In this document: in pieces, positions 62,026-63,585 of the stretch
Numbering within the stretch: position 1 is the first letter of the stretch
Layout of the letters: each line of letters opens with the position of its first letter
From: Maribacter huludaoensis
Lineage (GTDB): Bacteria; Bacteroidota; Bacteroidia; Flavobacteriales; Flavobacteriaceae
DNA: 64,000 nt
Assembly: GCF_029350945.1 (NCBI RefSeq)
Contig: NZ_JARKMS010000001.1
Location: 312,375 to 376,374 of the forward strand
Direction: 5' to 3'
Position numbers and translations under genes: made by a program
Notes under the pieces: model-generated
Told to the model about the DNA's origin: nothing
The model's input: the letters and a program-made list of their open reading frames with translations, nothing else
Databases searched by the model: none

Positions 62026-62430
62026 ATGAAAAAGATCGAACATTTAGGTATTGCGGTAAAGAACATGGAAGATTCTAATGCCCTTTTTGAGAAATTACTG
62101 GGTGTGGCACCCTATAAGCAAGAAGAAGTTGCATCGGAAGGTGTACTAACCTCCTTCTTTAAAAACGGACCTAACAAAATAGAGCTTTTATCTGCCACAG
62201 AGCCTAATGGACCTATAGCCAAGTTTTTGGAGAAAAAAGGAGAAGGCATACACCACGTAGCTTTTGAAGTGGAAGATATCGTATCAGAAATGGAACGTTT
62301 AAAAGTAGAAGGTTTTACTTTATTGAATGAAAAACCTAAGAAAGGGGCAGATAATAAGCTAGTTGCCTTTGTACACCCTAAGACTGCAAATGGGGTGTTG
62401 GTAGAGTTATGTCAAGAAATTAAAGAGTAA
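62026..62430 (+). CDS. mce: Methylmalonyl-CoA epimerase
   Basis: 134 residues, a VOC-fold enzyme that interconverts (R)- and (S)-methylmalonyl-CoA in propionate metabolism. Metal-ligand candidates are His6 (IEHLGIAV), Glu53 (KIELL), His76 or 77 (GEGIHHVAF) and Glu127 (VLVELCQ), in the order typical of the family. FLEKKGEGIHHVAFEV is the most diagnostic stretch. Length and N-terminus are standard. It lies alone, divergent from rbfA and about 135 nt before the tRNA gene. The methylmalonyl-CoA mutase genes are not in the window. Confidence 0.93.
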   Translation: MKKIEHLGIAVKNMEDSNALFEKLLGVAPYKQEEVASEGVLTSFFKNGPNKIELLSATEPNGPIAKFLEKKGEGIHHVAFEVEDIVSEMERLKVEGFTLLNEKPKKGADNKLVAFVHPKTANGVLVELCQEIKE

Positions 62431-62441
62431 GCTTTATTTTG

Positions 62442-62473
62442 TTTGTGACAGTTAAAAATAAGTAGTAATATTG
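62442..62473 (+). promoter_or_regulatory. Promoter of the tRNA locus
   Basis: A -33 TTTG (62442-62445) and a -7 box TAATATTG (62466-62473, one mismatch to TAnnTTTG) are 20 bp apart, giving a start near 62480, about 85 nt upstream of the tRNA. Confidence 0.5.
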
Positions 62474-62487
62474 CATCCGCAATTCGA

Positions 62488-62520
62488 GGGTTTTGTAAAA
62501 ACTGGTTTGAGCACCGGTTT
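62488..62520 (+). pseudogene. Possible remnant of a tRNA 5' half in the tRNA leader
   Basis: CTGGTTTGAGCACCGG at 62502-62517 matches the D-arm and anticodon-stem start of the intact tRNA (62580-62595) at 14 of 16 positions; the preceding GGTTTTGTAAAAA is a weak match to the tRNA acceptor and D-stem. It may be the eroded 5' part of an older tRNA copy. It can also form an 8-bp hairpin (62499-62520). D-arm sequences are shared by many tRNAs, so the exact parent is uncertain. Confidence 0.35.
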
Positions 62521-62564
62521 AAATCGAAATACGATATTACAGAACAACATATAGAATTGTTACC

Positions 62565-62638
62565 GGTCCTATAGCTCAGCTGGTTAGAGCACCTGACTCA
62601 TAATCAGGTGGTCCCTGGTTCGAGTCCAGGTGGGACCA
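62565..62638 (+). tRNA. tRNA with CAT anticodon, probably tRNA-Ile2 (lysidine type)
   Basis: A complete cloverleaf of 74 nt. The acceptor stem is GGTCCTA with TGGGACC (one G-U), the D-arm has AGCTCAGCTGGTTAGAGC, the anticodon arm is CCTGA-CTCATAA-TCAGG, and the T-arm is CCTGG-TTCGAGT-CCAGG. The discriminator is A and no CCA is encoded. CAT could mean elongator Met or Ile2. The anticodon-arm core GACTCATAATC and the following TGGTCxCTGG stretch resemble E. coli ileX more than metT, so I favour Ile2, whose C34 is changed to lysidine by TilS. A strong terminator follows. Confidence 0.93.
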
Positions 62639-62643
62639 CATAT

Positions 62644-62683
62644 AAAACTCCTTTAAAATCACTAGATTTAAAGGAGTTTTTTT
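62644..62683 (+). terminator. Terminator of the tRNA gene
   Basis: A 14-bp stem AAAACTCCTTTAAA (62644-62657) with TTTAAAGGAGTTTT (62667-62680), followed by more T residues, directly upstream of the GIY-YIG gene. Confidence 0.9.
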
Positions 62684-62693
62684 ATTTACAACC

Positions 62694-62993
62694 ATGTCTT
62701 CACATACTTACATTCTATACAGCACAACACTTAACAAATTCTATATTGGTGCATGTCATGAAGATTTAGACCAACGTATTGAAAATCATAACGCAGGTGC
62801 TTATGGTTCAAAAAGCTTTACCTCGAATACAAATGATTGGGTTTTATTCTTGAAGTTTGATTGTGATGATTATGCTCATGCTATACGGTTAGAGCGAAAA
62901 ATCAAATCAATGAAGAGTAGCGTTTACATTCGGAACTTGAATACATATGCCGAGCTACGAGATAAGATGTTTAATGAAACCAGGAGCACCTGA
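62694..62993 (+). CDS. GIY-YIG nuclease-domain protein nested between tRNA copies
   Basis: 99 residues, a single GIY-YIG domain. The motif reads TYILYS (5-10) ... FYIGACHEDL (about 17-26); the conserved Arg is in LDQRIENHN (about 26-34) and the catalytic Glu in AIRLERKIKSMKSS (about 63-76). It belongs to the small stand-alone branch related to homing-type and UvrC-like nucleases. It starts 10 nt after the tRNA terminator. Its last codons (Arg-Ser-Thr-stop) are written by the degenerate tRNA copy that begins at 62984: the TGA is part of the anticodon-stem sequence CCTGACTC. No DNA-binding domain is fused. Confidence 0.9.
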   Translation: MSSHTYILYSTTLNKFYIGACHEDLDQRIENHNAGAYGSKSFTSNTNDWVLFLKFDCDDYAHAIRLERKIKSMKSSVYIRNLNTYAELRDKMFNETRST

Positions 62994-63049
62994 CTCTCCC
63001 GATAGCTATCGGGACAGGTGGTCTTCAGTTAAGTAAGATGGGACCACAT
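62984..63049 (+). pseudogene. Degenerate 3' half of the tRNA with a palindrome in the anticodon loop
   Basis: GAGCACCTGACTC (62984-62996) equals 62587-62599 of the intact tRNA, CAGGTGGTC (63015-63023) equals 62605-62613, and TGGGACCACAT (63039-63049) equals 62631-62641. The T-arm between them is eroded. Where the intact gene has the anticodon-loop bases ATAAT, this copy has an 18-bp palindrome. The 5' half is missing, so it cannot make a tRNA. Confidence 0.88.
62997..63014. repeat. Perfect 18-bp palindrome TCCCGATAGCTATCGGGA
   Basis: Self-complementary over its full length and placed exactly in the anticodon loop of the tRNA remnant. I recall CCCGATAGCTATCGGG-type palindromes as frequent in flavobacterial genomes; it occurs once in this window. 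Confidence 0.85.
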
Positions 63050-63051
63050 TT

Positions 63052-63090
63052 AAAACTCCATTAGATCATTTAATCTAATGGAGTTTTTTT
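63052..63090 (+). terminator. Duplicated tRNA-trailer terminator after the tRNA remnant
   Basis: A 15-bp stem (63052-63066 with 63073-63087) plus T-run. It begins with the same TAAAACTCC trailer as the terminator of the intact tRNA, at the same distance from the TGGGACC block, and so is part of the duplication. Confidence 0.9.
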
Positions 63091-63177
63091 ATATTGTAGA
63101 ACACACTACATGTAGTATTTATAGCATGGGTCCTGAATAAATTGATATTCATCAATGGGCATTTTAGCTATTTAATC

Positions 63178-63585
63178 TTAATTATCCGTATTAACATTGT
63201 CTTTCTTAAATCCTTCAACGCTCATAAAGAAAATGAGTCCTAGGGCATAGGCAACAACATCTAACATATCTGCCGTGTACCGCTCATTATAACTAGGAAG
63301 TACTACTTCAAAATAAATTATGAATAGGAAGGTCATTATAATTTGTAGCGGCAAAGGGAGTACTATGTGTTCGTCAGATTTTATATATCTTACGCTGCAG
63401 AGACCTATTTTGAGAACAATGGGCATACATAAAAAATCGTTCAGATAGTTGTTTATAAGTATTGGAATATCAGCATTATAGCGTTGTAGTAGGTATACTA
63501 AGAGTCCAGTAATTATAAATACGGGAAAATAATATTTCTTTACGATGGTTTTGAACATTTTAAGAAGGAAATCTAACAAAATCAT
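63178..63585 (-). CDS. Small integral membrane protein (family sometimes labelled magnesium citrate secondary transporter)
   Basis: 135 residues with about four membrane helices (roughly 19-35, 45-62, 80-98 and 108-125). The pattern LNDFLCMPIVLKIGL ... YFEVVLPSYNERYTADMLDVVAYALG is a conserved flavobacterial family. The transporter label in databases is not backed by anything visible here, and the protein is too short for a usual transporter. An internal ATG at 63558 (MFKTIVKKYYFPV) is an equally good start. It lies 8 nt downstream of a zinc-ribbon membrane protein gene on the same strand. Confidence 0.75.
   Translation of the reverse strand: MILLDFLLKMFKTIVKKYYFPVFIITGLLVYLLQRYNADIPILINNYLNDFLCMPIVLKIGLCSVRYIKSDEHIVLPLPLQIIMTFLFIIYFEVVLPSYNERYTADMLDVVAYALGLIFFMSVEGFKKDNVNTDN

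Follow-up and report, generated by a model that had tools for sequence, protein, structure and literature searches.

Mobile open reading frames (ORFs) that duplicate the 3' end of their host gene have been described in fungal mitochondria, in atp6 of Allomyces and in atp6, atp9, cox2 and nad3 of Glomus (PMC3630166). In the available account of these elements, the endonuclease ORF supplies a replacement 3' end for the gene, and the native end is left downstream, where it resembles that of a relative without the element. The mobile ORF of Glomus atp9 is a GIY-YIG nuclease (PMC3630166), like the nuclease considered here, which is encoded within a 64 kb stretch of the Maribacter huludaoensis genome (the window). 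The fungal ORFs and the window element have in common a free-standing nuclease ORF, a host gene that is whole upstream, and a partial 3' copy downstream. The fungal ORFs are found in mitochondrial protein genes, whereas the Bacteroidota units are found in bacterial tRNA genes. Furthermore, the exchange of a tRNA arm for a hairpin is absent from the available description of the fungal ORFs, and a mirror form on the 5' side belongs to the Bacteroidota units.

A second precedent is SegB, a free-standing GIY-YIG homing endonuclease of phages that is linked to many tRNA isotypes, with no isotype preference overall (PMC13096335). As described there, SegB cuts within tRNA genes and drives the formation of tandem copies of tRNA and nuclease segments, and its cutting of the donor allele can be weak (PMC13096335). 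Both SegB and the Bacteroidota units are GIY-YIG nucleases, both are found at many tRNA types, and both occur in tandem. However, SegB is phage-encoded, while the Bacteroidota units are chromosomal and the window ORF has no phage match. In contrast to the absence of isotype preference in SegB, the nuclease lineage in Bacteroidota goes together with tRNA identity. A broken tRNA copy carrying a hairpin is not mentioned in the available description of SegB.

The small UPF0213-type GIY-YIG proteins are nearest to the window protein in both sequence and fold (1zg2). The Ssn family consists of site-specific single-strand nucleases of the GIY-YIG type that are paired with palindromic repeats; we know of no tRNA setting for the Ssn/UPF0213 family. 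In REP/RAYT and IS200/IS605 systems, too, a small nuclease gene is accompanied by short hairpins, and the enzymes there are of the HUH type. The combination of hairpin and small nuclease is shared with these systems, but the fold differs, being HUH there and GIY-YIG here. No description of such a family in bacterial chromosomes was found in the literature searched, which covered the field partially and included few subscription papers. The hairpin arm swaps and the two mirror geometries were described nowhere in that partial coverage.

The tRNA-Met locus of the window consists of the following features:

62565..62639, + strand: intact tRNA-Met (CAT), Rfam tRNA 73.3 bits
62640..62683, + strand: trailer and intrinsic terminator of the intact tRNA-Met, read in the sequence
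62694..62993, + strand: GIY-YIG nuclease ORF, 99 aa, single domain, Pfam GIY-YIG match
62984..63047, + strand: broken tRNA-Met copy, from the 3' side of the D-arm to the 3' end, with a hairpin between 12 nt and 8 nt of tRNA
62997..63014, no strand: perfect 18-bp palindrome TCCCGATAGCTATCGGGA, substituting the anticodon-loop bases ATAAT, from an inverted-repeat scan
63024..63038, + strand: 15 nt in place of the T arm of the broken copy and unlike a T arm, by direct reading
63048..63090, + strand: second trailer and terminator, by direct reading, with a right flank orthologous to that of genome G031 (93% identity)

The ORF starts with the ATG at 62694, 10 nt past the T-run of the tRNA-Met terminator, and its final codons (AGG AGC ACC TGA, including the stop) lie within the broken tRNA copy. 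This copy reads GAGCACCTGACTC, the 18-bp palindrome, CAGGTGGTC, the 15 nt, and TGGGACCAC. The palindrome is one of four inverted repeats in the 64 kb (arm of at least 7, loop of at most 6, G+C of at least 50%). It was absent from the original prediction, which likewise lacked the hairpin arm swap, the mirror 5' geometry, the tandem units and the ORF-less units. The first trailer is near-identical to a trailer in the Maribacter genome G008 (98%, 54 nt) and to that of the distal unit in G031 (96%, 52 nt). There is no integrase gene in the unit, since the interval between the tRNA and the broken copy holds the GIY-YIG ORF only. A group I intron with an endonuclease was considered and dropped, because the sole Rfam match above the gathering score in 62400-63200 is the tRNA.

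The palindrome occurs in two exact copies genome-wide. The other one is located at G000:C12:273953 (L010:1501-1518), and no tRNA was found in the 3-kb stretch around it.

The window ORF matches the Pfam GIY-YIG model with an E-value of 1.4e-9 (38.5 bits, cut-off 22.6). Among ten tRNA-linked relatives, the invariant residues include Y6, Y17, G19, R28, H32 and E67, and we take Y6, Y17, R28 and E67 to be the catalytic Tyr, Arg and Glu of GIY-YIG enzymes. The AlphaFold2 model has a mean pLDDT of 89.0 and a pTM of 0.81. The closest solved sequences are the UPF0213 proteins 1zg2 (E 6.8e-14) and 1ywl (E 8.5e-12), followed by SLX1 (2.9e-6) and I-TevI (0.037). In a Foldseek search with the model, the best fold was again 1zg2 (E 2.4e-3), and there was no match at or below E 0.001. 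The ORF had no match among 50,697 phage records at E 1e-3, no relative was confirmed on a viral contig, and none lies on a phage or plasmid contig. These searches thus point to no vehicle for the unit, which counts against a mobile element.

The window genome contains eight Pfam GIY-YIG matches, including five short ORFs, of which two adjoin tRNAs in the same layout, namely the window ORF and one at tRNA-Arg (TCG) (L002). At the latter, tRNA-Arg (TCG) is followed by a terminator, an ORF, a broken tRNA-Arg copy and a second copy of the terminator, and the broken copy is split by CCTGCCTGCCGGCAGGCAGG and a second hairpin. The remaining three short ORFs lie away from tRNAs; two of these (L001 and L003) are placed between direct repeats of their own, and the third (L008) is not. 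The recurrence at tRNA-Arg (TCG) in the same genome, and in other genomes, argues that the layout in the window is not due to chance. The arrangement first proposed from the window (intact tRNA, terminator, GIY-YIG ORF, broken 3' copy, second terminator) is real.

To survey the phylum, a model built from ten members was searched at E <= 1e-8 against 118 sampled Bacteroidota genomes, 71 of which contain a match; among the matches listed, the maximum per genome is 22, in G087. At 29 loci from other genomes, again among the matches listed, a tRNA or a piece of one was found beside the ORF in all 29 (by eye and with ARAGORN), and the broken copy is readable in 28, the exception being L096. A Mariniphaga metagenome-assembled genome encodes a relative with 54% identity, and its tRNA-Met piece has TTCCGATAGCTATCGGAA in the corresponding position; an intact tRNA was not found at this locus. 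A Frigoriflavimonas relative is located at tRNA-Arg (TCT).

All fetched Bacteroidota loci, including 59 further usable stretches from the phylum search, amount to 169 distinct GIY cores, with split pseudogenes and tandem copies counted separately. Of the 169 cores, 143 have either an intact tRNA at a distance of up to 300 bp or a tRNA fragment at up to 200 bp, among loci that were chosen by similarity to tRNA-linked members. Fragments alone are present at 116 of the 169 cores and at none of 115 control windows 700-900 bp away (these were scored for fragments alone, not intact tRNAs), at a threshold strict enough to miss the window's own broken copy. The linkage at 143 of 169 cores supports the original prediction in part, as regards a minimal nuclease unit that lacks an integrase, is tied to tRNA genes and has an intact tRNA on one side.

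The same prediction had expected homologues to be confined to tRNAs, and tRNA fragments of this kind to be accompanied by the nuclease. The first expectation is contradicted in part by seven more distant ORFs away from tRNAs (L001, L003, L008, L026, L027, L031 and L036), and the second, also in part, by broken copies without an ORF at L046, L070 and L020. Neither is taken as refuting the proposal, because both fit decayed or sister elements. All of the seven distant ORFs except L008 lie between direct repeats of their own, which suggests a wider design combining a nuclease with repeats, of which the arrangement at tRNAs is one variant.

Hairpins were scored in 103 distinct cases with a nearby tRNA, a case being counted as both-sided when the hairpin is flanked on both sides by sequence of that tRNA. 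Both-sided hairpins were found in 43 of the 103 cases, compared with 0/103 after shuffling and 2/101 in distant windows. Hairpins with tRNA sequence on one side or both were found in 78/103 (68/103 in an earlier, stricter scan), and here the controls reach 11/103 for shuffled sequences and 15/101 for distant windows; for this reason, we rely on the both-sided count only. No both-sided hairpin was found in 60 of the 103 cases and no hairpin whatever in 25, which counts against the model. The arm nearest to the 43 both-sided hairpins is the anticodon arm in 28, the T arm in nine and the D arm in six, and in 28 of the 43 the hairpin lies within 3 nt of the loop centre (null mean 13.8, maximum 25 over 2000 draws). 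Complete, symmetric replacement of the anticodon arm is seen in many of the cases at Ala, Val, Lys, Gly, Pro and Arg tRNAs. The 5' geometry accounts for 19 of the 103 scored cases.

Within Maribacter, matches were found in 21 of 36 genomes, located at tRNA-Met, Ala, Phe, Arg and Asp, as well as elsewhere. Two geometries are encountered. In one, an intact tRNA is followed by the ORF and a broken 3' copy, while in its mirror image a broken 5' copy is followed by the ORF and the intact tRNA (L022, L023, L028, L029 and L030). Among 30 orthologous Met loci, seven have a 3' unit, with the ORF open or stop-bearing, two have a 5' unit, two more have an ORF remnant detected by tblastn, and 19 gave no tblastn match or one of chance length only. 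The ORF is interrupted by stops in G013, G006 and G011. The intact tRNA-Met is identical in carriers and non-carriers. At Arg-TCG, three of 30 loci have the unit (G000, G010 and G006) and one more, L125, has a remnant; no tRNA was found in L132. In G008, two tandem 5' broken tRNA-Met copies without an ORF lie upstream of the intact tRNA-Met (L046:2038-2229), and they carry the same palindrome as the window in the same place. Between the window genome and G008 the ORF is 94.3% identical and the flank 92.7%, which fits plain vertical descent and counts against mobility.

A clean empty allele was not obtained for the window's own Met locus. The conspecific genome G010 was rejected in this role, as the window's upstream trailer is retained there and leads into unrelated sequence; from position 2163 of L042, this sequence is island-like and occupies the place where the nuclease unit would be. 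Arg-TCG offers no clean empty allele either, since the two trailers of carriers are alike and both are unlike those of non-carriers.

The tRNA trailer of G007 resembles the trailer that follows the broken copy of G016 (40/46 columns), and is unlike the one that follows the intact tRNA of G016 (23/48). Similarly, the broken-copy trailer of G028 resembles the tRNA trailer of G016 (33/43), whereas G028's own tRNA trailer does not (22/51). In both comparisons the displaced 3' end resembles the allele without the unit, although G016 and G020 hold ORF-less pieces further on and are not bare alleles. These trailer comparisons also lend support to the original prediction, since at a few loci they place the new unit after the tRNA and ahead of the 3' end that it formerly had.

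Tandem arrays, in which ORFs are spaced 315-408 bp apart, provide another view of polarity. In G031 the ORF nearer to the tRNA is open, and two stops interrupt the distal one; the distal unit resembles the single unit of the window in its trailer (96%) and right flank (93%). The order in G145 is the same, with the proximal ORF open and the distal one broken. The opposite order is seen in L181, where the tRNA-proximal units have decayed, and this counts against the model. The stretch L169:700-3700 has eight tandem units with a spacing of about 365 bp; its context is tRNA-Met-like, and no intact tRNA was found in it.

The relationship between nuclease, tRNA and hairpin was examined in 94 proteins, among which 15 amino acids are represented. 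The best relative from another host family is at a tRNA for the same amino acid in 42 of the 94, compared with a shuffled mean of 7.8 and a maximum of 18 in 2000 shuffles. That the nuclease lineage predicts the tRNA amino acid across host families lends the proposed tie to tRNA genes further support. Geometry is the same in 75/94 such comparisons, a count that shuffling also reaches (mean 65.9, maximum 78), and this stands against the model. A quick tree of the 94 proteins, built from few columns and with 39 of 91 inner branches left open, requires 10 changes of geometry, compared with 15.9 after shuffling.

A hairpin is present in 73 of the 94 rows. Seven of these (L029, L030, L099, L110, L167, L177 and L195) were dropped by hand as chance or terminator repeats, leaving 66, and removal of near-copies left 53 for the comparison of stems. 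Stem similarity between nearest proteins from another family and at another amino acid is 0.751, compared with a null of 0.622 and none of 5000 draws as high, in 46 pairs in many of which the hub rows L089 and L090 figure. Within one family the similarity is 0.667 against 0.623 (246/5000 as high), and within one genome it is 0.617 (16 pairs) against a null of 0.621. A coarse three-class hairpin test on pairs from another family and another amino acid was not significant (33 vs 32.2). Judging by stem similarity across families compared with that in the same genome, the hairpin is associated more closely with the nuclease than with the host.

We consider it probable that these units are a tRNA-dwelling mobile element of Bacteroidota that has the nuclease as its only gene and homes by a nuclease break followed by homologous repair; this mode is favoured because of the layout of the mitochondrial mobile ORFs and the precedent of SegB. 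The architecture, its recurrence, its polarity at a few loci, and the co-segregation of the nuclease with tRNA identity and hairpin stem can be read from sequence, while the making of the break by the nuclease, and insertion by homologous recombination through the tRNA pieces, are inferred as its likely means of entry. The unit would comprise the 3' half of a working tRNA, equipped with a trailer and a terminator of its own, and then a single-domain GIY-YIG ORF whose position allows read-through from the promoter of the tRNA. The unit would end in a partial copy of the tRNA, one arm of which is either exchanged for a G+C-rich hairpin or interrupted by one. It would enter an intact tRNA gene of matching identity at the break, and recombination through the tRNA pieces would insert it, joining the 5' half of the host tRNA to the 3' half brought by the element. 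The tRNA would stay whole, and its old 3' end and trailer would be displaced downstream, behind the broken copy. In the window, the intact tRNA-Met would then consist of a host 5' half and an element-borne 3' half, and 63048..63090 would be the displaced older trailer. A mirror version would occupy the 5' side of the tRNA. The tRNA pieces that flank the hairpin would be the arms that direct the element to the next tRNA gene.

Given the rest of this scheme, the chances seem evenly balanced that the hairpin is the site recognised by the nuclease. The pairing of hairpin and nuclease, similar to that in Ssn, points this way, and the enzyme presumably does not cut the intact tRNA freely, because the tRNA is unchanged in carriers. 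Linkage inside the element, together with constraint, could also yield co-variation of hairpin and nuclease without recognition. Homing normally destroys its target inside the host gene. The unchanged tRNA-Met of carriers and non-carriers means that insertion leaves its target intact, unlike in usual homing, and this stands against the model.

An explanation closer to SegB would be duplex homing, in which the tRNA gene is cut in the altered arm and the hairpin is only a scar, disabling the cleavage site of the extra copy without any part in recognition. According to the available description, SegB cuts inside tRNA genes at a motif, RAWTSGAAC, that we read as the reverse complement of the T-loop (PMC13096335). 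The altered arm is mostly the anticodon or T arm (28 and nine of 43), and the relatedness of the nucleases tracks tRNA identity, as this explanation would have it. However, the adjoining intact tRNA is the same as in non-carriers and should also be cut, unless cutting is weak, and the conservation of hairpin stems with the nuclease across tRNA types is not predicted, so that we regard duplex homing of this kind as unlikely. GIY-YIG genes might instead have accumulated passively, stuck at tRNAs by local duplication, with REP-like palindromes, of which these genomes have many, falling into the useless copy. The palindrome TCCCGA..TCGGGA, found in 56 of 60 sampled genomes, is indeed dispersed in some Bacteroidota, where it far exceeds its reversed control (52 vs 0 in G059; 111 vs 0 in G046), and unequal crossing-over of tRNA pieces can enlarge tandem arrays. 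Elsewhere, however, such palindromes are few or do not exceed the control (3 vs 0 in the window genome, 2 vs 29 in G048, 0 vs 3 in another genome), and the hairpins are centred on tRNA arms. Moreover, stems in one genome are no more alike than random ones, whereas those of related nucleases in other families are, which makes passive accumulation quite improbable.

Duplicated tRNA 3' ends are typical of integrase-bearing islands, and the units could be what is left of such islands after insertion at the 3' end of a tRNA, the nuclease being cargo that survived. Apart from the duplicated ends themselves, the island-like sequence after tRNA-Met in G010 is in keeping with this. We give it very little credence, since units of 315-408 bp leave no room for a second ORF, a 5' geometry exists (19 of the 103 scored cases), and the hairpin swaps and the co-segregation of nuclease and tRNA are left unexplained.

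Returning to homing by nuclease break and homologous repair, it is tempting to speculate that the units form a new class of mobile element, in which GIY-YIG nucleases, each paired with its own hairpin, spread by swaps of tRNA arms. Cutting at the hairpin, most likely in single-stranded or cruciform DNA, would free tRNA-homologous ends that invade the conserved tRNA gene of whatever recipient. This is put forward tentatively. If true, the tRNA would serve as a universal address, and its rebuilding would be the price of harmlessness. As a mobile element, the unit would target a gene that nearly every bacterium has, and with one gene of about 80-100 codons and no transposase it would be more or less the smallest autonomous mobile element that we know of. 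Part of the 'loose' GIY-YIG genes and tRNA pseudogenes of Bacteroidota may be tRNA-homing units (71/118 genomes). The element would also connect small GIY-YIG nucleases, whose function is unclear, with palindromic repeats and with the evolution of tRNA genes.

At four of the surveyed loci (L097, L099, L110 and L113), no more than a few bases separate the 3' end of the tRNA from the start of the ORF. There is no intervening terminator, and these ORFs look as if they were translated from the tail of the tRNA transcript.
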